From positions 124,001 to 188,000 of the forward strand of contig WHVD01000136.1 in NCBI GenBank assembly GCA_015178975.1: a stretch of DNA of 64,000 nucleotides, in the 5' to 3' direction. The stretch's first letter is position 1. The number at the start of each line of letters is the position of its first letter. This stretch comes from Hysterangium stoloniferum (lineage: Eukaryota > Basidiomycota > Agaricomycetes > Hysterangiales > Hysterangiaceae). Both the position numbers and the translations under genes were made by a program. This document shows positions 9,233 through 37,879 of the stretch, in pieces. Below the pieces are notes generated by a model. The model did not search any database. It saw nothing but the letters and a program-made list of their open reading frames with translations, and was not told the DNA's origin.

Positions 9233-12200
9233 TCATCTACCTTCAAACATCTCTGCTAAGATGCCTTCTTCGATGGCAGTCCAATCGATATTTCCAGCGC
9301 AATGATATACGCCTTCGTAAGATGCTATGCTAACGTGAGAGAAGAAAGGGATGAGATCACGTATGCTTTCAATTTGCTGGACGTGGGTGAGTAGCGGCCG
9401 TCGCATAGGTACAGTAGAGTGCTCCTGGTAAAACAGTGCACTGTTGAGCCTTCCCTGAACACTCGGACTGACGTCCACTGTCGCGGGTTTTGAGTCCTGA
9501 CAAACAATAAATGTTACCAATACACAGAAACAAGGCAAGTATTGTGCATACTCGAGTTTTGGATTGTGGGAGATCGGATATAATCTCTGCTAGTTGATCT
9601 AGGAGAGCTTCCGGAACCCAGGAGTCAGGCCGATATACTGCATCGACCGTGTCCGTAATAAACATCCACTGGTGGCTAGGATAATTGTAAGCATGGATGC
9701 TACCCCGATAGCATCGCCACAAACATTTGAAATTCTTCGGTTTGCAAAGTGAGGACCAAGTCAAGAAATTTTGAAGCGGATAAGATGACATGTAAATCAT
9801 CGGAACCATCTGCGGGAGGATCCATTGTAACTTGTTCGAAGATCCGTAACTGCCGGTCGTCAGTGCCGCCATCAATTAACATACACGTTACTCACCAGTT
9901 CAGTGAGAATAACAGGCCAAAAACTTGATAGATTATGCGGCGATAATCGGCACAAGAGGACACGCAGGCATAAATATACCTAAAAATCACAAAATCAGAG
10001 CGATGCTTCGCTCTTACATAATATCAAATACCTCGCTTTCCATGAGGGGAAGGTTGGGATTGCGCAAAATATCCACCAATTTCTCCTGTATTGAAGGCAA
10101 CTGCGCCAAAAAATGATTCTTTTCAGCTGTGAAAATCGCGTATGACAGTCGTCGTAGATTCAAAGAGCGTAGGAGGGTCTCGTATTCTTTATTTACAAAG
10201 ATATTACTGGAGCCTCCAGAAGCTACCTTGCCTATTTATTATGCACCACGTGTCAGCGTAATTAATAGTCCATATCACACGCCTACCGATTATTTCTTGA
10301 AGAACTTGTCTATCCGAATCCAAAAAGGCTCGTATGATGGGCCGCCATTTTTGGCTGACTTCTGGCGACGCGTTGAAGAACCGGGTATCGTTGAAAGCAT
10401 CAGCGACAGGGGTTTTCCAGGCCTTCACCCCAGGAGGAATCCGAGATAATTCACGTAGCGTTTCGAGGATACCATCCTCGATATCCAACGCACGGCTGCA
10501 AAAATCATAAGATGCTGAACTGGCTCGTAAATATCTAGACGTACGTCGCTTTACTCTTCATCGCAGGTGCAATAATGTAGTAAACGACGTTGGTGCATAC
10601 GCTGGCGACTTTGTCATTATCGAACAAGAACCGCCTTAAATTTGGTAAGACACGGGAGACAAGGAAGCTGTTAACCTGACAGGCATGATCAGTTCTACAT
10701 TCTTATGGATATGGACTAGATATACTTGATCAGGTAGATCCACCGCTATGCTGGATATGGATGGCGAAGCAGATAACTCGGCCTTTTCGTCCGCTTGTTC
10801 CGCTTGTACTAAATAATGTTAGGACAATGTTCGCGGTTGAAAATGGATAATGGAATATAAACATACCGGGAGGCAATGGAGTAGATGTTCCACTATTTGC
10901 AGGGACAGCATCTCTTACGGGTCGCCGCAGCCAGGTTCCTTGATCGAGTGAACGGCCAGCAATCAAGATCGAATTATCTACAAGTTTGATATATACATCC
11001 TATATGGATGTAAGTGAGTTTAGTAATCAACTATCCGGGAAGATATCCCTCACCTGGAGTTCCTTTCGAGTTCGGCGATCCTCAATCGCTGTTGTATTAG
11101 TAACTTTGTCTGCCAGCATTGTAATGCATCTAGGAGATAATTGGAGATCGAGAGCGTATAAATTGACTGTCGCCATACCTCAACATAGGGAATATTTGCA
11201 TCTTGTAGCCGTGGGTGTTGCTCGTTATTTCCTTAGCTATCGCCATACATCGACCCCAGACCTGTACAGCAAGCGGCCCCTCCAAACGTGAAAGATACTC
11301 CTCCAGGAATCCGAATATCACTGCATCAGACCTGTAAAGGGATGAATATCGGCATAAAGAACCCAAGTATTTCGGCTTACAAGTTCGGATTTACTGCTGG
11401 TCGCTTGGTTTTATCTGATGACATTATTCGGAAAGAAATGCTTTCGCATAACATGTGTACAATGGTCTGGGAACTCGACGTCAAGGCGTCAACGATATCG
11501 AACGCGACAACATGATCCGAATTCTCCTATGAGCTGTGTCAGATACTCGGTTTCAAAAAAAAGAAGAAAATGGGGGAAAGGTACATACTAAGTCACCTTT
11601 GTGCCAGCACTCGACGATAGACTCGACGACCTCGGATGACTGCGTTCGGAAGAGACGCTCCAACACTTTTCGACCGCGGGTTCTGCATCGATTGAGTATG
11701 AGAGACAATGTTTCACTCTCGGGAGAGCCCGGTTTAGTCGCTCCCTTCTCGGTCAAACTCCAGAGTGCATAGAGGACTCGAACAGCATCATGTAGGGCAT
11801 GATACCCTGGCGACCGAGCCTGAGTGTATGTGAGCTCATTAATACAACATACAATACGGTTAATAATGTCACCGATAGAAATTCTTCGTTGTTGTTACCG
11901 GTTACTTCGGAACTGAACACATTCGACACAATCCCCATCAATCCACTACCGACAGTAGCGTCCTGAGTTGGACGGTCCAAACCAGAGTCATCCTCTTTGT
12001 CGAGGCCATTGAGATCATAACCTTTTGTCAAGCTGAGAAGGACAAGCCGCTCCAAAGCGTTAAGCAGCATGATAAATTCAGCATCTGTGGTGCCTGACAT
12101 AAAACTGCCCAGTTTCATAGAATTGTGGCCTAGTATGCTTTTGACATCTGCAATTGAATGACGCAATTGTCGACATACGCAGTCGCTTAGAGGAGGTACG

Positions 12201-15200
12201 GTATAACTTAACAGGCGTGGAAACTGCGGTACAGACATTAAAACGAAATCTAACCAATGCTGCAAGCTTGGCCGGCCGGCAGTCCTTGTGATACCATCAA
12301 CGAGTGTTGGAAGTAGTAGTGGATTGATTTGGATGAATGAATGTCCAGATACTCGATCAGAGTCCTCCATATTAACCAATTCCTTTTCTGGCATATCGGT
12401 AGCATCGACGATCTTATTGTTACTAGTCCTCGCATGGTGGGACCCAGATGAAGCGGAAAGGGCCGAGACCAGCGAATGTAGGACATGTAAGAGCTTGTTC
12501 TGTAGATCAACCTTATCCAAGTGAACTGATGAATACAGTTTTTCGATAATCGCAGCTTCCACCAACTTGAGTCTAGGCACGTCAAGCTCGCCTCGAGCAA
12601 CTATGGTTTGAATCATATCAATGACATTGGACTGAATTTGGAGGTTGGCATGAGACATAGATGGCGCAAGTACTTCGGGAGGTTCCGATCGCAGATATCT
12701 GTATTATCATTGAATGTGGGAAGAGAGGTAAAATGGAGACAATCATACCGAAGAAGGATCTCCAATAACACATCAAGATATGATGCGTCAGTAACAACCA
12801 GTTTGGCTGTTTGGTATATCTCATTAACTCCCTAGGTACAGTAGTAAATGATGAATTTCACCTCCGTCGACACGTGCCACGAAACCCGGGTGATTAGACT
12901 TTTTGAACGGTGTGTTGCGAGCAACCCGGCTAAAGCCTTGACCGCCAAATTTGATTACTGATATTAGTATCTCTAGTAAATGGTTCATCCTGTGCTCGTC
13001 GAACCGCAACTCGTATACGAAGCCTGAAATTTGAAAATTATTATATGTTTTAGTAAATGGTTTGCGCCGAATGGCGGGATCTAGTAGGTCGAATAATAAA
13101 GGCTCTAAAACACTGAGGAGCAACATTCGTAAACAATTTCACTTTTACGGACAAATACGAGGAGCTACCGAGTGTATGATTTCAAACTACAACGCATCCA
13201 AGTCTCTCCGATCCGACGGAGGTCAGAATCAGAGTTCTTGAGTGTCTCTAAAACTAAAAGCATGGGGATTTTGAACCGGAAACCCGGAAATAGGGCATCG
13301 TCTTATATAGTGGACAATCAAGATTTGATACAATAATAGAAAAAAAAGGCCATACCGGTCAGACGCCAAAGGACGCCGAAGGCTTCATATGCTTCGTGAA
13401 GACGACCAGATCTCGACGGATTTAAAGACTGCGCAATGAGCGACTCGACATGATTGTGCGCTGTGACGTTATCCAGCATCCATACAAGTTGCACGGCGCG
13501 CACATGATATGGAGCGTAACTGACTCGCAGAAAACGAAGAACCTAAAAGCAGTTACTAATAATCTAGACAAAGACAGGCAGGCACTAACAGCGGTCATCA
13601 TTTTGGACATGATGAGTCGATCGTCGAAAATTAACTGAGGCTGCAAATTGGACGAAACCCCTAGAGCAAGGATCGTGGATATTACCCGATCAGTAACCAT
13701 AAACGACGAATGCTGTGCAAAAAAAAGTCAATACACGATAGATTCCCAGACTAATAAACGTCACCGATTCTAAAGTCCTGAGAACGGCTTTCAGCCATTG
13801 CACCGGCTCCCAAGCCACATTTACGGTATATTCACCTCGCCGACTCACGAGATCACACATTAACGATAATATGGTGATAAATGATGCCGTCGCCTGCTGA
13901 CGCCCTTCAGAATTCTTGGCTAAGACATCTGCGCAGGATATGCTTAATGTTACAAGGTCCTCGAGCGCTGTGACGAATGGTACGTCGCTTCGTGTCATAG
14001 TGTCTTCTTCTTCGACCGAATTATCCTTTCCGATTATCACTCCATAGAAACCACAAGCGCGAGCGTAAGGCCGTTTTGGTAGCGCCGAGTCACCAAGGTC
14101 GTCGTCAGGCTTGTATAGCGGTCTTGTCAACCCAGTGTTAGATATGTGGCGCGATACCTCAGAAAGCACTTCTAAAGTTTCTGAAACGCGATCAGTATGT
14201 ATCCGTTCGATATCTTTAGCGATTATATTCTATTATGATATCAGTATTGATGGATGGGAAATATCCTGGACTGACCTTCAGGAGTTCAACCAACCCTGTA
14301 AAGAAAATGGGAAGGTGTACGTCTTGCACTTCATCCTCTTGAGCTCTCAGACGGCCAAGGATAAATTTCACCATGGACATGGCGTCGAAAATCCGCGCAC
14401 GACCATCGTCAAGTAGTTCTGTGTGCACTGCGGCAAATAACTGCTTCCAAACAAGTAGAGGTTCCACAGCATCATACAACGCGTTGGCTGTCATGAGCAA
14501 CTTCGTAGTTGTTAGCAATCCCCGACTAATAAATGATAACAAATCAACGCCACTCACATCAGCACCACTCTCGCCATCTTCCAGAACACCCCGCTTCAAT
14601 GCTCTGAGAGCATCATACAGAAGTACTTCAACAAGAGGTCCGCCAAGTTCCCATTTATCCAGCAATGTAATGAATATCTTGAATGGTCGTGAATCTGGTT
14701 GCAGGGAGGAAAACATATCTTCGCGTAGAGTTTCGCGTAGTAGATCAAGTGCATTCTTGCGGAAGAATAAGACTTGACTCTCCTCCGGACCGGGCCCAAG
14801 TAACCATCCAAAGAGTCTGCGATTTAAGGATAGGTCCCTGCGCAAAACCACATTGCTGGCTGCTCTCATGAGGATACGTTGATCACTAAGCGGTGCACTA
14901 ATATAAAATGAGCCACTTGGACAAACAAACAAATCATTGTCAAAGCGGCTTACTGTGTTAAGGCACTGCTATTCACTGGGATAGATTGCTCTAGCAAATC
15001 TAAAGCCGAACGTCGAACAAGCAGGTTATCGTCCTCCAAGACTGCAGAGAAGGCCCGAACCATTAAACCGACATCACGCCCAATAATGGGAGTGAAATCT
15101 ACTGTTAGTTTAGCAAGCGAACTTTTTCAGTCTACTATTGTCGACAAACCTTCATCGTCAGAATTCAGTTTTGGTAACCGCCGGGAAAGGAAGTTGAGAG

Positions 15201-22187: not shown

Positions 22188-23300
22188 TTAATGTTGTGGA
22201 AGATTTGGATATTTTTGGTGAAATTCTTCGATAAGGTCAAAAGCATGTTCGAGATCTTGAGAGCCTAACCACAAAGTTTCTTCGTCTGTTCCTTCGTAAC
22301 CTAACCAAGCAACTAAATATCGTAATGAATCCTTATATCTTTTATTGAATTTTGAATCCAAAATTTCTCGAATTTCATATTTGGGTTCTTCTTCAACATA
22401 AATCGGAGGAGGAGGAGATTGTTTTCGATTTGGGAAAGTATTGGGATAAAATGGTTCTAACATCGAAACGTGAAAGACGGGATGAATTCCTTTGAGATGA
22501 TTGGGGAGTTTTAATGTATATGAATGAGATACTGGTTGAGCAATGATTTTGAATGGGCCTAATAATTTTTCTGATAATTTTTTCGATGGTCGAGTCGTTT
22601 GAATAAAGTCGGATTGTACGAAGACTTGAGAATGGATCGGAAAGTCGAAAGACTCTTTTCGATGTATGTCAGAATATTTTTGATAATGTATTTGTGCTTT
22701 CTGGATATTTGATTTGAGATGTTTATGTAGAGCTTCGAGATCTGTCATATAATCGCGAGCTAGAGCGGAAGCTAGATCTTTTTCAGGGTGAATTTCTAAC
22801 AATGGATGATAACCTTTATTAGCAAAAAATGGTGTTTCACCAGTTGTTTCGGAAGGTGCATTGTTGTAAGTGAATTCGGCTAAAGGAAGTAATTCGGCCC
22901 AATCGTCTTGTTGATAATTGGAATATATTCGTAAATATTGTTCGAGGGTTTGATTGACTCGTTCGGTTTGTCCATCACCTTCAGGATGATAACCGGAAGT
23001 GAAATGTAATTTCATGTTGAGTGCTGTTCCGAGAGATCAAAAGAAATGCGACACGAATTCGGATCCTCATCAGAAGTTACATGACTGGGGACTCCATGTT
23101 TTGAAAAAACATGTAACACGAAAAGTCGAGCAAGTTCGGGAGCGTTGATCGTAGTATAAGTTGGAATGAATACTGCTTGTTTCGAAAGTCGATCGACGAT
23201 TATGAGTATTGAGTCGTAACCATTCAAGGTCGGTAATTGTTCGATAAAGTCCATCAAAATCGAATGCCATGGTTGAAGAGGGATTGGAAGTTGCTTAAGT
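22188..23300 (-). pseudogene. Chromovirus 1 integrase with chromodomain, truncated
   Basis: Two open frames joined by a frameshift near 23050 encode the C-terminal half of a Ty3/Gypsy Pol. The integrase core is recognisable by SILMDFIEQLPT (first Asp), VTSDEDPN (second Asp, at the frameshift) and NQTLEQYL (Glu). It is followed by the GPF-type segment (KLLGPFKIIAQP), FHVSMLEPF and a chromodomain (YLVAWLGYEGTDEETLW). Chromodomains direct integration towards heterochromatin in this group. The 5' part of the element is missing: similarity stops abruptly at about 23300. Confidence 0.85.
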
Positions 23301-24927: not shown

Positions 24928-25847
24928 TTAGTATTTAGTATGGCCCCCCTTTGCTCTAATCACTGCTGCAAGTCTTCTAGGCATACTCTCAAAAAGCTTC
25001 TGACACTCCTCCTTTGGAATCTCTTCCCACACCTTCTGCACCCTCTCCCACAGTTCATGAACACTATTTGCAGGCTGTTCATACTCCCCCAGCTTCTTTT
25101 TGACATGATTCCACAGATGTTCAATAGGATTCATGTCAGGAGATTGTGCAGGCCACTTGAGGACTGTAACATCATGGTCAGTGAACCATTTCTGGGCCAT
25201 TTTGCTGGTGTGTTTGGGGTCATTGTCTTGTTGAAACACAATATCAGCCACTGTTTTGTTGTAATATTTGAGGTTTTGCTGGTGTTCATCATCCAGGATC
25301 TCCACATAAAGCTCAGCATCCATCCTCCCATCAATTTTGGTTGCAAACCCAACCCCATCCCAGCCCATGCATCCCCACATCATCAGGTTTCCTCCTCCAA
25401 ACTTGACTGTTCCCTCTACTAACCTATCATTTAACCCCTCACCCACATTTTTCCACACATTTTTCCTTCCATCTGATCCCAGCCTATTAATCTTAGTCTC
25501 ATCAGACCATATGACCCTCTTCCAGTCCTCCAGGGTCCATTCCAAATGCCTTTCTGCAAACTCCAATTGAGATTTCCAACGATGAGGTTTGAGAAGTGGC
25601 CTTTTTCTCTTTACCACAGCCCTCATGCCTATGGTTTTGAGGTGGCGATGCACTGTTTGTGAAGTAATAGGAGTGTTGATGATGTCTATAAGTTTCTCAT
25701 TTGCCTGTGTGGCATTATCAACCTTCCCCATGCAAATTATTCTTCTAGCATAGGCAATATTGGCTGTGGTAAGCTTTGTAGGACAGCCACCAGAGCATTT
25801 GGGGAGGTCAGGGCAATGCTCAGAGCAAATACAACTGATGGTGGCAT
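24928..25847 (-). pseudogene. Tc1-like transposase (DD34E), split by an LTR
   Basis: The open frame 24928-25731 carries the catalytic domain: first Asp in VIWSDETKIN, second in FQQDNDPKHTS, Glu in NPIEHLW. There are 34 residues between the last two, the Tc1 spacing. The paired-like part continues in frame to the LTR border (CPDLPKCSGGCPTKL), and the N-terminal helix region lies beyond the LTR at about 28224-28310 (MKKLSSSQIQHV). At the junction the two parts are out of frame by more than the target duplication explains, so an indel predates or accompanies the insertion. The catalytic half looks unusually well preserved. Confidence 0.88.
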
Positions 25848-28218
25848 TGTCATGTATTTTAAAAGGTTTTTCTATTTTTTACAATTTCCCCAAAACGAAA
25901 TTCTTAACAAAAGCTTCTAAATGTACTTATATCGCGATCATAAAAATTGTACAATATTCTCTTAATTTATATTGAATTTATGCAATTTATTTTGCATTTT
26001 TATCTTATAAATTGAGGGAGCTACGAAATTTCTACTTTTTATTCTTTTTTAACTATATATCTTCAAACCGGCCACCTGGCGCTTATTATATAATGCGCGG
26101 GAATACTCGTCACAACAAGTGACCTGTCGTCACAACAAGTGACCGGACGTCACAACAAAGTGACCGGCCGTCACGACGAGTGACCATCGTCACAACGAGT
26201 GACAGTCACAAGAGCGCGCGACAGTCACAAGGGCGCGCGACAGTCACAAGGGCGCGCGACAGTCACAAGGGCGCGCGACAGTCACAAGGGCGCGCGACAG
26301 TCACAAGGGCGCGCGACAGTCACAAGGGCGCGCGACAGTCACAAGGGCGCGCGACAGTCACAAGGGCGCGCGACAGTCACAAGGGCGCGCGACAGTCACA
26401 AGGGCGCGCGACAGTCACAAGGGCGCGCGACAGTCACAAGGGCGCGCGACAGTCACAAGGGCGCGCGACAGTCACAAGGGCGCGCGACAGTCACAAGGGC
26501 GCGCGACAGTCACAAGGGCGCGCGACAGTCACAAGGGCGCGCGACAGTCACAAGGGCGCGCGACAGTCACAAGGGCGCGCGACAGTCACAAGGGCGCGCG
26601 ACAGTCACAAGGGCGCGCGACAGTCACAAGGGCGCGCGACAGTCACAAGGGCGCGCGACAGTCACAAGGGCGCGCGACAGTCACAAGGGCGCGCGACAGT
26701 CACAAGGGCGCGCGACAGTCACAAGGGCGCGCGACAGTCACAAGGGCGCGCGACAGTCACAAGGGCGCGCGACAGTCACAAGGGCGCGCGACAGTCACAA
26801 GGGCGCGCGACAGTCACAAGGGCGCGCGACAGTCACAAGGGCGCGCGACAGTCACAAGGGCGCGCGACAGTCACAAGGGCGCGCGACAGTCACAAGGGCG
26901 CGCGACAGTCACAAGGGCGCGCGACAGTCACAAGGGCGCGCGACAGTCACAAGGGCGCGCGACAGTCACAAGGGCGCGCGACAGTCACAAAAGGCGCGCG
27001 ACAGTCACAAGGCGCGACAGGTGTCACACGCGCACTAGCGCGGGAATATTATGTCATACATTATGTCATTTGGGAATATTAAGTCATATGTTATGTCATC
27101 TGGGAATATTATGTCATACATTATGTCATCATATATGCTACAGTAGAGAATGGCAGAAATGTCTAAAACATTCCAAGTAAAATAGCTAAAATAGGATAGA
27201 AATAAAGTTCAATATGTCTCTAAATGTCTCACATCTCAGTGTATATAAGGAGCTCTGCTCCAGCCATGAAATACAACCAATCTTATCAACCAATTTAACA
27301 CCACATCTGTGTGTCACTGCAGCTAGCAGTATATTGCCACCTCTTAGTTGAGCATCTGGCACCTAGGATTCCCTGTCACCTCTTGTTGAGTAATTTGACA
27401 GTAATTCTACCAATCAGGATTCCCTGCCACCTCTTGTTGAGTAATTTGGCATTAATCCTTTGTACCACAGTCACCTCTTGTTGAGTAATTTGACTGCTTG
27501 TTACATATCTTGTTATTTGTAGTTTAAGACTTCAGTCACCTCTTGTTGAGTAATTTGACTGATTATTACATTGCTAATAATCCTTGTTACATTTCTTGTT
27601 ATTTGTAATCTAAAAACTTCAGTCACCTCTTGTTGAGTAATTTGACTGATTATTATATTACAAATAATCCCTGTTCCCTTGCTCATTTATTGTGAATCAG
27701 TAAAGCATATTCACATAAATAAATACTGAGAATATCCTTGCAAGATCCTAAGACTACATTAAGATCCTGATAAGTTAGTATCACAGTAGACCCTGTAGGT
27801 TAGTGTAAATAAAGCATATATTAGCCAAATAGTGTTTTATTCTATATCTAATCTTTTGACCCGTTTATAAATATTTTTACTGTTTGACAAATAGTATAAA
27901 ATATATATAAACTAGCTAGCATTGAAGTTAAATCTAGCTTTGGAATCAGTAAATTGTTATTCTTATTTTAGTAGTTGTTATCACAGAAAAAGAACAAGCT
28001 TGCACAAGCAGCTCTCAAAACCTTCTTTGCGAAGTAGGGTGCATATATTCAAGTAAACTCTTGACTTCAGGGGTTCTAAGTCTATTTAGGCTGCCACTGA
28101 TTAATATCAAATACTTAAATTATTTTACCTTGTAGTGAATTGAGTATTTGCACACTTTGATAGAGCATTGGACTCCTTTTTCCAGAAAATAATATTATAA
28201 TAAGGCTAATACATTACA
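25848..28218 (+). mobile_element. 2.37-kb solo LTR carrying a satellite array
   Basis: Starts TGTCATGTATTTT and ends TAATACATTACA, with a perfect GGCAT target duplication at 25843-25847 and 28219-28223. It contains an AT-rich 5' part, a 19-bp CpG-rich satellite (about 26202-27018), a TATA box in GTGTATATAAGG (27240-27250), and a 3' half in which CACCTCTTGTTGAGTAATTTG recurs several times between 27340 and 27660. Orientation is taken from the TATA box. A second, diverged copy lies at 61789-63962. No internal coding sequence is present. Confidence 0.85.
26202..27018 (+). repeat. 19-bp tandem satellite, about 42 copies
   Basis: The unit is CACAAGGGCGCGCGACAGT. Nearly all copies are identical; the first has AGAGCG and the last two have small indels. 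The unit contains four CpGs. Because 19 is not a multiple of 3 and the unit has no stop in any plus frame, it produces a 300-codon open frame that I regard as an artefact. The homogeneity suggests recent expansion. Confidence 0.95.
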
Positions 28219-28566
28219 GGCATGCTGAGATGAGTTTGGTAACATATTTGAGCTCCAGAAATGCCAGAGTCAAATAGAGTAAGAACATGTTGGATTTGGC
28301 TGGAGGAGAGCTTTTTCATTGTGAGTAGGGTGATTGTGGGATTCCAACTGGTTGCTATCATCTTATATACATTGAGGAAGAGTGGTCACATGACTTTGTT
28401 GAACTTTATAAACAAATTCATGTGACTAGGACCCATTTTGAACTTTAAAAATGTGTGCAACAAAACCCTTACAATGAGCTATTGGTTTGTGTGATGTGGA
28501 CTTACCAAATAAGGATGTGGTGCCTTGTGGCTGTGCATTTCTGGAAGGTATGATGTTGAAGTATAT

Positions 28567-28994
28567 CCACCATCGTCTTGCTGTATGGACATCGACAAAT
28601 CCGATCCAGCAAGGAAACTTGCTGGCCTCGGTACTCGCTCCCAACCGTATACTACCCACCACTGGGTCACCAAGATTCTCAGAGTTCGATGTATACGTAG
28701 GTCAGCACGAATTGACTATCTTATCACTCCCTTTGGACCAGGCTCAGTAGTAGACTCCTAATCAGTAATTCTGGATGGGCGAAACGGTCGGGGTAGCGGT
28801 ATCCCCCTGATGAGAGCTCTTGTCGGCTTGAAACCGTTACTATCCCATTTCCCCTAGCCACCCTCTACACTAGCTGACAAAGTTCTATCTTCGGAGACAA
28901 CTGTTTGCGGCGAGTGATAAGGTGGTGGTCCGCCCAGCGGCGCTCTGGTGGATGCTGGTGACCATTGTGTTGTCATGGTCACCTGGCTAATTCC
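28567..28994. mobile_element. 428-bp structured insertion in the Tc1 arm
   Basis: Defined by comparing the two Tc1 arms: this block is absent from the left arm. It is GC-richer than its surroundings. It holds a perfect 8-bp hairpin with a GAAA tetraloop (28606-28625), a hammerhead ribozyme motif (about 28771-28848) and a second perfect 8-bp hairpin (28957-28983, stem GGTGACCA/TGGTCACC). No ORF longer than about 60 codons within it looks coding. Exact borders and any target duplication are uncertain by a few bases. Small size plus a ribozyme suggests a non-autonomous RNA-borne element. Confidence 0.65.
28771..28848 (+). ncRNA. Type III hammerhead ribozyme (predicted)
   Basis: All core elements are in the right order. 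Cleavage triplet GTC is at 28787-28789. Stem I is closed by GGGG (28790-28793) and CCCC (28803-28806). CTGATGA is at 28807-28813. Stem II is GAGC (28814-28817) with GCTT (28826-28829), and GAAA is at 28830-28833. Stem III pairs AACGGT (28783-28788) with ACCGTT (28833-28838), then ATGGG (28775-28779) with CCCAT (28844-28848) across an internal loop. The core A15.1-U16.1 and C15.2-G16.2 pairs are present. The one weak pair, G-U at the base of stem II, would be G-C before a CpG deamination (TCGAAA to TTGAAA). Predicted cut: between 28789 and 28790. Confidence 0.75.
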
Positions 28995-29090
28995 ATAATA
29001 TTTTCGGCATTTTACAGAATTTACCTCTGGAGGAATAGCCATGTCTTTCAAAAAGTACAAAACATTGTAAGGGTTTTGTTGCCTACTGTA

Positions 29091-32374: not shown

Positions 32375-32939
32375 TGTTACGACCCATTCCTGGATGTTTC
32401 AATATCCGATTTCCGATCTCCAACTTCCGACTTCCGATCCCCGACTATGGAACATCATAGTTACCGTATCATCCGCATTCTTCCCTTGTTCCGCATTTGG
32501 TAATTTGTCTGTTGACAAGTATTCACTCATTTGTTTGTTGTATTCCCATTTCGGAATATTGTCTCCCTAATATGTCTTATTGTATTTCCGTTTCAAGAAC
32601 ACTTCCATTTCCGTCTTATTATGGTCTTAGTTTGTAGTACAATAATGAGTAGACTTATATTAGTTTCCGCGAATTTGTACTTTACCTTAGATCTGATATC
32701 GACTTAGTTTCTTATTCCTCCTCCCGTCTTTCTGTACGCTCGATATTCGGAACTCTTCGGAACTCTGAATATCCATATCTTCCGTTGTAAGTTTTACTTC
32801 CGAAATTAAGGACATTGAGCATTTGCATAGAGGCGCAGCACATAAGCTGAAGCCGACGTCTTGACCCTATCCACGAGTTTCCGACTTCCCGGTGACTTTC
32901 CAATAGTTCCGGAATAAGTTCCCGACACGGCACTTAACA
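32375..32939 (+). mobile_element. 5' LTR of chromovirus 3
   Basis: 565 bp, TGTTACGACC to GGCACTTAACA, flanked outside by CAGAC (32370-32374). A TATA-like TTATATTA at 32655-32662 is followed 34 bases later by the presumed transcript start at 32689, where the self-primer sequence begins. Differences from the 3' LTR are all transitions by my count of about 20. Confidence 0.93.
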
Positions 32940-32941
32940 GT

Positions 32942-32952
32942 ATATCAGATCT
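32942..32952 (+). other. Primer-binding site, probable self-priming
   Basis: ATATCAGATCT, three bases after the LTR, is exactly complementary to AGATCTGATAT at 32689-32699 inside the LTR. The latter would be the first 11 nt of the transcript. This is the arrangement known from yeast Tf1, which primes with its own RNA end rather than a tRNA. Confidence 0.65.
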
Positions 32953-32964
32953 CAACTCTGCGAC

Positions 32965-34194
32965 TTGCTCATCATGGGTCCCAAACGCAAAGCTGCCAAA
33001 GGACCATCCCAACTTCAATCCCCGTTGCAACTTTACACCACTCAATCCGAAACCCCTTTTCAGCCGACAACATCAGCTTCAGTCGAAGAAGTTACCGAGG
33101 AGGTTACCGAGGTAACAAAGGACACCAATGTTCCCCACACTTCCGACAACGAAGCAGAAGATCAGCCGGAGACATCGAAAAAGAAATCTTCCGATGAACC
33201 AACTGAAATGTTGTTTATCAACTCCATCGTGAAATTCGCTGACTATTTGAAATCCGCTGAGGATAGTAAAGAATCTTCCCGCACCGGAGTCAAAGAACCC
33301 GAACCATTTACCAGCAAGGATCTGAAAAAATTGAAGAATTTCCTTCTCCAATGCCGTTTCAGTTTCCGTGATCGACCCAATGCTTTTAAATCCGACAGTC
33401 AAAAAGTCAATTTCGCGCTCTCTTATCTCAAGGATACCGCTCAAGATTGGTTTGAACCCGGACTATCTGGAATATCCAACGAGACACCCGTATGGCTCGA
33501 CGACTGGGACGCTTTTGTGGAAGAACTGGAGACTAATTTCGGACCTTACGATCAAACCGGCGAAGCGGAAAATGAATTAATGACGCTCAAGATGAAGGAC
33601 AATCAACGAGTTTCCGATTATCTCGTCAAGTTCAATACCCTCGCCGCACGATGTGGATGGGACGATTCTGCCCTCAAACACCATTTCTATATGGGACTTC
33701 CATCACGCCTTAAAGATGAAATCTGCAAAGATGGAAAGCCGAAAACTCTCCAACTCATGCGGATGAAAGCTCAAACATCCGACGCCCGTTATTGGGAACG
33801 TAAAGCCGAGGTTTCTCAAGAAAATCCGACAGAACGTTCTCAGAACAACAAGGTGTCGACTAGCAAGTCTTCTGGCAACAACTCAGGCAATAACACTGGC
33901 AACTCTGGCACTAATACTGGCAAATCAAACTCTGACCGGAAGAAAGACAAGAAATCCAACAAGGAAAAACAGTCCACTTCCGACAAACCTGACATTTCCC
34001 ATTTGTTGGGTACCGACGGTAAACTCACCCCAAAGGAGAAACAACGACATATGGACAACAACCTCTGCGGGAAAGGCGGACACAAGGTTTCCGACTGTAC
34101 CGTTAAATCTAACTCTTCCAAGGCCCATGCGGCAACTTCCACTATGACTACAACATCCAAGGAAAAACCCGCCATGGAGCTGAAAAAAGAGTAA
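32965..34194 (+). CDS. Chromovirus 3 Gag
   Basis: An intact 409-residue frame. It has an acidic N-terminus, then a capsid-like domain with SFRDRPNAFKSDSQKVNFAL, LKDTAQDWFEPGL and NELMTLKMKDNQRVSDYLVK, typical of Ty3/Gypsy Gag. A Ser/Asn/Lys-rich nucleocapsid part follows. The zinc knuckle near residue 365 reads LCGKGGHKVSDC: the CX4HX4C end is present but the expected additional Cys two positions earlier is missing. The frame ends after a run of six A (GAAAAAAG at 34182-34189) with stop TAA at 34192-34194, and the pol frame (-1) is open across this run. Gag-Pol would therefore need a -1 frameshift. Confidence 0.88.
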   Translation: MLIMGPKRKAAKGPSQLQSPLQLYTTQSETPFQPTTSASVEEVTEEVTEVTKDTNVPHTSDNEAEDQPETSKKKSSDEPTEMLFINSIVKFADYLKSAEDSKESSRTGVKEPEPFTSKDLKKLKNFLLQCRFSFRDRPNAFKSDSQKVNFALSYLKDTAQDWFEPGLSGISNETPVWLDDWDAFVEELETNFGPYDQTGEAENELMTLKMKDNQRVSDYLVKFNTLAARCGWDDSALKHHFYMGLPSRLKDEICKDGKPKTLQLMRMKAQTSDARYWERKAEVSQENPTERSQNNKVSTSKSSGNNSGNNTGNSGTNTGKSNSDRKKDKKSNKEKQSTSDKPDISHLLGTDGKLTPKEKQRHMDNNLCGKGGHKVSDCTVKSNSSKAHAATSTMTTTSKEKPAMELKKE

Positions 34195-37100
34195 GCAACC
34201 CTCCGGAATCTGCACAGACAGAGGGTTGCGTTGACTCTCTCCTTGTTTCCGAGGTTATCCGTCTCAACGCGTCCGCTCTCTCTAATCCCGATTCATTATT
34301 TGTAAAACTCGTTTCTGACTTTCTTGGAAATTTAGTGTTCCGAGCTCTAATAGATTCCGGCTCCACACACTGTTTTGTAGATACCACCTTTGCCACGAAA
34401 CATAATCTGAAACTCCATTCTGTTCCCGCAATTTCCTTGCGTCTGTTTGACGGCACTAGCAATATGGCAATTACTCAAGCCTGCGACATGTCTATCTGGT
34501 TCCCTTGTGGAACATCCCAGACGGTTACTTTTTTCGTAACACAGTTGGACTCTAGCTGTTCGGTAGTTCTTGGATACAACTGGCTCACCCGATATAATCC
34601 ATTGATTGACTGGGTATTGGGCAGTATTAATTTCCGAATTCCCGACACTTCAGTTCCTCCTGCAGCGTCTCTTCCGGCCAACGCCTTTTCGGCATCTACG
34701 GCACCTCTGGCTTCTACCGAAACCTCCACGCCTCCAAAAATCTCTCTTATCAACGCTTCAGCATTTGTTAGGGTGAGTAAACTGGATGGTTCGCAGTGTT
34801 TTTCAATCAGCTTAAAAGTTGATGAAGCATCTGGATGTTTTGCGACTCCAGAATTATCCGAGCTAAAAGCCGACCTGGAAGGAGTTCCCGAAAAATATCA
34901 TGATTTCGCGGACATTTTCAGTAAGCAAAAAGCTGACTGGCTTGCACCACATAGGCCTTACGACCTAAAAATCGATATTGAGCCCGGTTCAAACCCTCCG
35001 TTAGGACCTATTTACCCATTATCCCAATTGGAACTTTCGTCTATTCGGGAGTTCCTGGATGAACATTTGTCGATAGGTTTTATCCGTCCCTCAAAGTCTC
35101 CGTATGGAGCACCTGTCCTTTTTGTCCGAAAGAAGGATGGCTCTCTTCGACTATGTGTTGATTTCAGAGGATTAAATTCCATTACACGGAAAGACAAGTA
35201 TCCACTTCCACTCGTTACCAATTTACTCGATGCCCCACAGAAAGCTCGGATCTACACCAAAATAGACCTCAAACACGCCTATCATTTGGTCCGAATTGCC
35301 GAGGGCGATGAATGGAAAACTGCTTTTCGGACTCGCTATGGATCCTTTGAATGGTTGGTTATGCCGTTCGGCCTTACCAACGCCCCTTCCGCTTTTCAAC
35401 GTTTTGTTAATGATATATTTTCCGACATGCTTGACGTATGTGTTATAGTCTATTTGGACGACATTTTGGTATTTTCCAAGGATCCCGCTCTTCACGACGA
35501 ACAAGTCCGTGAAGTTTTTCCGAAGACTCCATAAAAATGGTCTTTTTGCCAACGGTAAAAAATGCTATTTGACATGGATTCTATTGAATACTTAGGTTTC
35601 ATTATCGGACCTGATGGTTTCCGTATGGATGAAACCAAAGTTCAAGTTGTCCGTGATTGGCCCGAACCACAGAAAGTCAAGGATATTCAGTCATTTTTAG
35701 GTTTTGCCAACTTTTACCGACGTTTTATTCAGAACTACTCAGATATTACAGTACCGCTCACTCATCTTACCCATAAAACTCAACCATGGGTCTTTGACGA
35801 TAAATGCCGATCCACCTTCCAGACTTTAAAAAATGCTTTCACTTCTGCCCGATCCTTTCCCATTGGAAACCTGATGTTCCGATTATTGTGGAAACCGATG
35901 CTTCTGATTATGCAATTGCCACAATTCTTTCCATTCAAGATTCCGACGGTGAAATTCATCCGGTCGCATTTCTTTCTCGGACACTTTCAATATCTGAACT
36001 CAACTACGATGTTCATGATAAGGAACTTTTGGCAATTTTTGAAGCTTTTAAACATTGGCGCCATTATCTCGAAGGTTCCTCAACTCCCGTTGACGTTGTT
36101 ACCGATCACAAAAATCTCGAATATTTTTCTACCACTAAACTTTTAACCTGCCGGCAAGCCCGCTGGTCTGAATTCCTTTCTGCTTTCAATATGATTATCC
36201 GTTTCTGACCCGGACGTCTTGGTGGAAAACCAGATGCCATGACTTGACAATGGGACGTCTATCCTAAAGAGGGGGAAAGTAATTATGCCGTTGTTAATCC
36301 GCATAATTTAAAACCAGTTTTTACAACGCAACAACTTTCCGCATCTATCCGAGCAACTTCCCTCTACTACCCAATTATGCGTAGCGTCATGATTATGGAC
36401 ATTGAGCAATTACATCAAGATATCCTTTCCGCACTCACTTCCGATCCGGTTCTCAAGCCACACCTAGAAGTTCCTGACAATCCGGACCAACCCCGATGGT
36501 CACAGGACTCTCAAGGTTTTATCCGTCTCGATGGACGTATCTACGTTCCAGATTCCAACAATCTCTGACTCCATGTACTTCAGTATAAACATGATCATCC
36601 AATCTCCGGACATTACGGCATTAACAATACTCTTGGTTTAATCCGTAGAGAATATACATGGCCCAACCTCCGAGATTTCATAACCCAGTTCTGTAAGTCA
36701 TGCACCACCTGCTTACGCTCTAAGACCCAGAGGCACAAGCCATACGGCCTTCTCAAGCAACTCCCGATACCAGAAAAACCCTGGAATTCAATTTCCATGG
36801 ATTTTATCGAACAACTCCCGACTTCCGAAGGCTTTACATCCATTCTAGTTGTTGTGGATCAATTCTCAAAACAAGGCATTTTCATACCCACTCATGATAC
36901 AATCACGTCCTTACAATTAGCGGAACTTTTCATTATTCACGTATTTTCCAAACACGGAGTTCCGTCTCACGTAACTTCCGATCGAGGCTCCAAGTTCATC
37001 TCCCACTTCTTCCAGGCCCTTGGAAAAGCCCTCGACATGAAACTACACTTCACCTCGGGATATCACCTGGAAGGTGATGGACAAATGGAACGTGTAAATC

Positions 37101-37879
37101 AAACATTGGAACAATATCTCCACATCTATTGCAATTATCAACAGGACAATTGGAAATCCCTTCTTCCGATCGTGGAATTCGCCTACAATAACTCCCCGAA
37201 TGCAACTACTGGCATATCTCCTTTCTTCGCCAACAAAGGCTATAATCCGAATCTCACCGTACATTCCGAACGAGATTTGGCTTCTGTCCGTGCTCAAGAA
37301 TTTATTACCGACCTCGACGAATTACATCAAGAACTTCGGAAAGCTATTTCTTCCGCACAGGAATATTATCAATGTTCCGCGGACAGAAACAGGATCCCGC
37401 CTCCTAACTTTAAAATCGGTGATCAGGTTTTTGTAAAAGCTCAATTCTTCCGTACTACCCGACCTTCTAAAAAACTCGCTGAGAAATTCTTAGGACCTTT
37501 TGAAATTATAGCACAAGCCGGTTCACTCTCATGGACTCTCCGACTTCCCGATAGTATGCGAGCAGTTCATCCCATTTTCCACGTTTCCATGTTAGAACCC
37601 TGTGTTCCTAACAAAATCCCAGAACGTATTCAACCTCCGTCCCCTCCAGTCATTATTGACGGAGAACCTGAATTTGAAGTTTCCGAAATTTTGGATTCTA
37701 AAATCGACAATTGCCGACGTACTTGTAAATTGCTTTATTTAGTCAAATGGGCAGGCTATGAAGGTACCGACGAGGAAACTTCATGGATATTGGCCACGGA
37801 ACTTGGACATGCTATGGAAATTGTTACTGACTTCCACATGGCTTATCCAAGTAAACCCGGACCTTTATCATCACTCTAA
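34182..37879 (+). pseudogene. Chromovirus 3 Pol (PR-RT-RH-IN-chromodomain), broken
   Basis: Domains in order: protease (ALIDSGSTHCF, ~34350); reverse transcriptase (KKDGSLRLCVDFRGLN, MPFGLTNAPSAFQ, VYLDDILVF with the YLDD box near 35450); RNase H (IIVETDASDYAIA, ~35880); integrase zinc finger (CKSCTTC, ~36700); integrase core with D, D, E in SMDFIEQLP, VTSDRGSKF and NQTLEQYL; and C-terminal chromodomain (LVKWAGYEGTDEETSW, ~37745). Breaks: a one-base gain near 35520 and a one-base loss near 35570 that cancel, a further one-base loss near 35845, and three TGA stops at 36206, 36245 and 36566, each explained by C-to-T in CGA. The element is recent but not autonomous as it stands. Confidence 0.92.

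Follow-up and report, generated by a model that had tools for sequence, protein, structure and literature searches.

We find that the window, by which we mean the whole 64,000-nucleotide stretch of Hysterangium stoloniferum DNA that was analysed, contains what its sequence identifies as a genuine type III hammerhead motif. The host of this motif is, by the structure of its ends and of its insertion sites, a Helitron-like DNA transposon that inserts without target duplication. The initial annotation had placed the ribozyme in a mobile insertion and overlooked, as tools are needed to see them, the nature of this host, the occurrence of the ribozyme in a second kind of element and the rod, predicted as the best RNA fold of this copy, that competes with the hammerhead; mobility itself is borne out by a dispersed 425-bp element with sharp ends in its copies and with empty sites. 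Comparisons within the genome demonstrate, as far as sequence can, the module, the ends of the element, its many copies, its duplication-free insertion at the sites that were checked and the presence of the same module in a second element. The explanation that we prefer, and that we regard as reasonably probable, is that a non-autonomous Helitron-like element captured a genuine type III module and amplified it; there the module may travel as a partly active passenger.

The hammerhead motif and its copies

The boxes and stems that had been annotated were all found in their places when the sequence was read directly (Table 1). The topology is also that of type III, as had been claimed, with UH, CUGAUGA and GAAA in order, stems I to III, and loops closing stems I and II. 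We take the cut to follow the C of the GTC box, as the general rule for hammerheads would have it. In a search of 900 bases around the motif against 4227 Rfam families, Hammerhead_3 (RF00008) was the only family listed at E values up to 1; it matches + strand positions 28782-28839 and scores 27.2 bits (E value 0.002). This score lies below the gathering score of 48.5 bits. The best copies in the genome (L003, L004 and L005, which have C at 28829; loci are designated by L numbers throughout) reach 31.9 bits and also fall short of this threshold, and an Rfam scan of the whole window at gathering scores gave no match. When 16.7 kb were compared with the same 4227 families, the E value of Hammerhead_3 was 0.0017. 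Nine of 12 loci compared with Rfam matched at E values up to 1, all below the gathering score; at this limit there was no Hammerhead_3 match in L055 and L056, which hold diverged copies of the motif, or in L061, which holds none.

Table 1. Positions of the motif, of its host element and of associated repeats (window coordinates unless a locus is given)
Feature	Position	Strand	Basis or remark
Non-autonomous Helitron-like element, 425 bp, 5'-TCCACC...GGCTAA-3'	28566-28990	+	Sharp ends in copies; equal-length empty sites
5' terminus TCCACCA	28566-28572	+	Inverted as TGGTGGA at 28946-28952; predicted pairing
5' subterminal hairpin, CCAGCAAG-GAAA-CTTGCTGG	28606-28625	+	40 bases from 5' end
Long stem of predicted rod	28715-28729 with 28912-28926	+	87% complementary; in six-sequence consensus fold
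Outer stem III, 5' strand ATGGG	28775-28779	+	Partner CCCAT 28844-28848; sequence
Stem III, 5' strand AACGGT	28783-28788	+	Partner ACCGTT 28833-28838; sequence, Rfam match, alignment, predicted pairing
C17 of hammerhead	28789	+	Sequence
Predicted cleavage site, after C of GTC	28789/28790	+	Hammerhead rule applied to sequence
Stem-loop I, GGGG 28790-28793 / CCCC 28803-28806	28790-28806	+	Rfam match, alignment
Core box CTGATGA	28807-28813	+	Sequence, copy alignment
Stem-loop II, GAGC 28814-28817 / GCTT 28826-28829	28814-28829	+	GCTC in 37/40 copies (last base)
Core box GAAA	28830-28833	+	Sequence, copy alignment
3' subterminal hairpin, GGTGACCA...TGGTCACC	28957-28983	+	Followed by TGGCTAA; 3 bases before CTAA
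Minisatellite, unit about 96 bp	L061:1150-2420		Upstream of L054 ribozyme

Copies of the motif are numerous. A 200-base query found 181 candidate places, and all 40 that were scored were 96-100% identical to it. These 40 aligned copies take in duplicates as well as a second assembled copy of the window locus: the window locus (L009) and L048, on a near-identical contig, have 4.8 kb in common at 99.7% identity, for which reason contig C231 appears to hold the window locus a second time, as another copy or haplotype. The view that the motif is more than a chance assembly of boxes is supported by a 31-base core pattern which, with up to three mismatches, occurs at 136 places in the genome and, when read backwards, at none. 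Among the 100 listed of these 136 matches, the GTC box is replaced by GTA in many and by GTT in some; C, A and T at the cleavage-site base all satisfy the NUH rule. The boxes are kept in other genomic copies, as anticipated, since 29 of the 33 copies left after removal of seven duplicates from the 40 pass a joint expression for GGTH, CTGATGA and GAAACC. One of the four failures (L038) is due to a single stem base (AGTC), while one box is altered in each of L031, L041 and L045. The one weak pair of the motif had been ascribed to a C-to-T change in a CpG, and position 28829 is indeed C in 37 of the 40 aligned copies and T in three. One exact-pattern scan of viral contigs gave no matches, a result that rules out near-identical relatives only.

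The host element and its insertion sites

Homology between the element and the 40 loci, compared as 6-kb stretches, begins within 10 bases of 28566 in every locus except L041 (28637); it ends within 28989-29002 in every locus except L009 and L048. The TCCACC start, which provides the 5'-TC mark, is present in 39 of the 40 copies; L041 is non-homologous before 28637. The 3' end was scored in 32 insertions (the 40 loci minus L048, L035, L039, L012, L013, L021, L032 and L041, which are duplicate or incomplete), where the base after CTA is A in 17, G in one and T in 14. A CTRR end fits 18 of these 32, the 14 CTAT ends being misfits if the final base belongs to the element; equal-length empty sites identify the terminal A as the element's own in L011, L018 and L036. 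An asymmetric terminal inverted repeat, the mark of Helitron2 or helentron elements, amounts to only 7 bp in the window copy and stands 38 bases before the 3' end. One pair of the 5' subterminal hairpin is G-C in five of six sequences and A-U in the sixth. The 3' hairpin together with the end pattern was found at 102 places in the genome versus none in the control. Of 33 copies the expression could read 31, and in these the inner pair of the hairpin is A-T 15 times, T-A 14 times and a mismatched T-T twice. We interpret the ends, the hairpin and the duplication-free insertion as Helitron marks because they are so described in the accessible parts of two reports (PMC4289320, PMC5148889).

The element at L043 interrupts a sequence that is intact in L041, the break falling between TATTTA and TAAC. 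Uninterrupted sites of equal length are known for five insertions, namely this pair and L011, L018, L036 and L045, and it is because these empty sites are equal in length that we conclude that there is no target duplication at checkable sites; that of L045 equally fits a 1-bp duplication of T by a 424-bp element. A genome search with 20 joined flanks, in which 40 of 410 candidates were scored, gave no spanning match for 15 of the 20 among those scored. The joined flank of L010 has an empty site of 91 versus 93 bases, and L045 has two more sites of 84 versus 90 bases. The base before the insertion is G in 14, A in nine, T in six and C in three of the 32 insertions, and the base after it is T in 15, A in nine, G in five and C in three; the rule that Helitrons insert between A and T is thus not followed in general by this set. 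Inverted repeats across the insertion point have a mean score of 4.81 in the actual flanks versus 4.27 in permuted flank pairs, with one of 200 permutations as high; L043, L027 and L022 score at least 8, and flank inverted repeats around the insertion point also occur at L014 and L044. Hairpins as insertion targets may be taken from these scores as a lead only.

The Helitron Rep domain (PF14214) has at least 151 matches in the genome, several of which lie in open frames about 1900 codons long; the genome is rich in Helitrons, which may be active. A comparison by eye found no RepHel gene within 10 kb, on the same strand, of the element's 3' ends among the matches listed. The element's end words were absent from three stretches 3' of RepHel genes, stretches that may miss the ends and of which one stops at a contig end. 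We write 'Helitron-like' and not 'Helitron' because the sites are not of the A-T kind, 14 of 32 ends read CTAT and no RepHel lies near the listed 3' ends. A retrozyme or other retroposed host was considered and rejected: the copies are single units with sharp ends and with empty sites lacking a duplication, and there is no LTR pair and no tandem unit. Retrozyme insertion is expected to bring a target duplication. Penelope-like elements encode a reverse transcriptase and carry hammerheads in their terminal repeats; a 425-bp element is too short for such a reverse transcriptase.

Several further features were observed in the neighbourhood. Another dispersed repeat lies just 5' of the element (27599-28222) and recurs in L037, L041 and L043 at 93-96% identity. 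Separate open frames for Ty3-type gag, protease, reverse transcriptase, integrase and chromodomain extend over 32938-37879, and Tf2-1 SH3 and chromodomain sequence also occurs on the - strand (22188-23036). Ty3-type elements with a chromodomain, like the Helitrons, are compatible with a fungal genome. The - strand also carries a Tc1/mariner-type transposase frame with DDE_3 and HTH_Tnp_Tc3_2 domains (24928-25878) and the frames of a DOP1 (Dopey) gene (11753-14968).

A second kind of element with the same module

Alignments indicate that one ribozyme module is present in two otherwise unalignable kinds of element in the same genome. The exact core, with a different loop, was matched in another context at five loci (L054 and L057-L060); L054, L059 and L060 are near-identical including their flanks and so may be one insertion that was duplicated. 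When L054 and L058 are compared with the window element, 53 bases align at 92% identity and these are the ribozyme itself, L054 having one further 12-base match; in L062, 50 bases align at 94%, again the ribozyme only. Longer alignments were obtained for L057 (81 columns, 83%), L063 (88 columns, 78%), and L064 and L065 (132 and 125 columns, 82-83%). Its presence in both kinds points to movement of the module as a unit. In L062 and L063 we also observed giant inverted repeats (L062:19-613 and L063:65-911). Their longest arms measure 250 and 289 nt and are 94-96% complementary, and a changed-box hammerhead forms the loop between them.

Upstream of the L054 ribozyme is a minisatellite whose unit starts with GTAAG, contains CTGAC and ends with TTTGTAG, so that it resembles a short exon joined to a short intron; further upstream still is a TATAAA-like stretch. 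Predicted folding also differs between the two kinds of element. The best fold of the window copy has -26.8 kcal/mol versus -20.2 for the hammerhead, a gap of 6.6 kcal/mol, and that of L004 has -31.2 versus -22.4, a gap of 8.8; in eight pieces of the Helitron families the best fold beats the hammerhead by 4.6-14.6 kcal/mol and hides the core. The gap is 1.8 kcal/mol in L054, 1.2 in both a long and a short piece of L057, and 1.8 in a short piece of L058; this result depends on the length of flank that is folded, since a 90-nt piece of L058 gives 6.0 kcal/mol. Because the second element has the signals for transcription and a fold that is better balanced, we infer that the Helitron-like element probably took the module from it.

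Competing explanations and known systems

Under the explanation that we prefer, the ribozyme would be native to the second element, where it would lie downstream of the TATA-like stretch and the intron-like repeats. The Helitron-like element would have captured some 130 bp around the ribozyme, and a RepHel enzyme supplied by a different element would then have multiplied the captured copy through rolling-circle DNA transposition. A transcript in the + orientation may pass through the hammerhead fold during its synthesis and cut itself at 28789/28790, the cut RNA then settling into a rod. The ribozyme in the transposon would most likely be a passenger with some activity and would have no part in the transposition step.

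It is also conceivable, although we think it rather unlikely, that the hammerhead, captured together with its surroundings, is dead, being held inactive under the rod, and that only the hairpin form matters, whether in the transposon's RNA or in its single-stranded DNA. The full 425-nt RNA does have a rod as its best predicted fold, with a z score of -3.61 and none of 100 shuffles folding as well. The rod is retained in a consensus fold of six Helitron-family sequences, in which six of 122 pairs are changed on both sides. Three of the six fall in a hairpin competing with the hammerhead, and the central stem of this hairpin is 99% paired across 12 sequences, all distinct and drawn from five copy groups. 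In the same 12 sequences, however, the hairpin as a whole is 85.8% paired and its outer stem 69.8%, versus 94.0% for the stem cells of the hammerhead. The rod consensus has a covariation term that is slightly unfavourable (+2.54 kcal/mol). The competing hairpin has no covariation above shuffles in these 12 sequences, which are too alike to be decisive. The same is true of the hammerhead, for which two both-side changes were counted versus 1.1 in the shuffles, a number reached by 146 of 500 shuffles of sequences that are again too alike to be decisive; these copies give no sign that compensatory pairs are conserved, both-side changes being no commoner than in shuffles. The fold program, moreover, takes no account of loop-loop contacts or of folding during synthesis, which weakens the case for a rod that silences the ribozyme.

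The opposite proposal, that the ribozyme serves the transposon, seems to us improbable. Transcripts of circular DNA would here be cut into 425-nt units of a retrozyme-like or viroid-like RNA and the Helitron would have an RNA stage; if true, this would open a possible route for ribozymes between unrelated elements and viroid-like RNAs. The rod-like fold of the whole RNA and the retention of the boxes in 29 of 33 copies under the strict expression are consistent with such a role, as is the low frequency of non-CpG changes, which is 0.086 per site in the ribozyme versus 0.52 elsewhere in the 32 insertions. This rate is, however, matched by 38 of 366 overlapping segments of equal length, and when CpG changes are counted 123 of the 366 are as low and the ribozyme is unremarkable; these counts may be read as mild support at best for sequence constraint on the ribozyme. 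Nor is an RNA copy needed, because the transposition of Helitrons reportedly proceeds as single-stranded DNA, according to the available portion of PMC5148889. We consider it very improbable that a conserved hairpin carries the boxes by chance. An Rfam score below the gathering score, the lack of covariation above shuffles and the presence of the overlapping hairpin would all be expected of such a hairpin, but chance was rejected on the E value of 0.0017 and on the boundaries of the module, which are kept across the two kinds of element (in L054, L058 and L062) where sequences are otherwise unalignable beyond 12 bases. A partly active passenger remains the reading that we favour.

The motif resembles the hammerhead type III family (RF00008) in box order, in its three stems and in its looped stems I and II, and differs from it in scoring below the gathering score and in having a strong competing fold. 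Five Hammerhead_3 matches are reported from the genome of a mushroom, Pleurotus ostreatus, in the accessible text of PMC5040776. These are comparable in their type III motif, in their several copies and in occurring in a mushroom genome, but they are only five and come without a named host element in that text. Helitrons of the same species, in the part of PMC4289320 available to us, share the TC start, the subterminal hairpin, the absence of target duplication and, as regards the 18 of 32 insertions that fit it, the CTRR end; theirs insert at AT and measure 1.5-13.7 kb. The capture of foreign DNA by Helitrons is described in the same part, and the word ribozyme is absent from the text of that paper. 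The non-canonical, Helitron2-like Helitrons of Fusarium oxysporum, as presented in excerpts of PMC5148889, are similar in that an inverted repeat of the 5' end lies roughly 40 nt short of the 3' end and in that some have hairpins towards both ends; their ends are ATTTT or CTCCTGT and not CTAA, and their repeat is of at least 12 bp versus 7 here.

The accessible literature on hammerhead or self-cleaving ribozymes together with Helitrons, a scope that leaves out preprints and most subscription papers, yielded no hammerhead inside a Helitron. Hammerheads of plant and animal genomes are tied to retroelements and circular RNAs in the sections of PMC7761336 and PMC6431247 that were accessible. A Helitron-like host is unusual because plant and animal hammerheads have mostly been described from elements copied through RNA and from viroid-like agents. 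Plant LTR retrozymes, in the same sections of PMC7761336, are alike in being non-coding mobile elements with a type III hammerhead, but they have LTRs, whereas the elements described here occur as single units, end like Helitrons and insert without duplicating their target. A DNA transposon of the rolling-circle kind that multiplies a hammerhead would add another way for ribozymes to spread.
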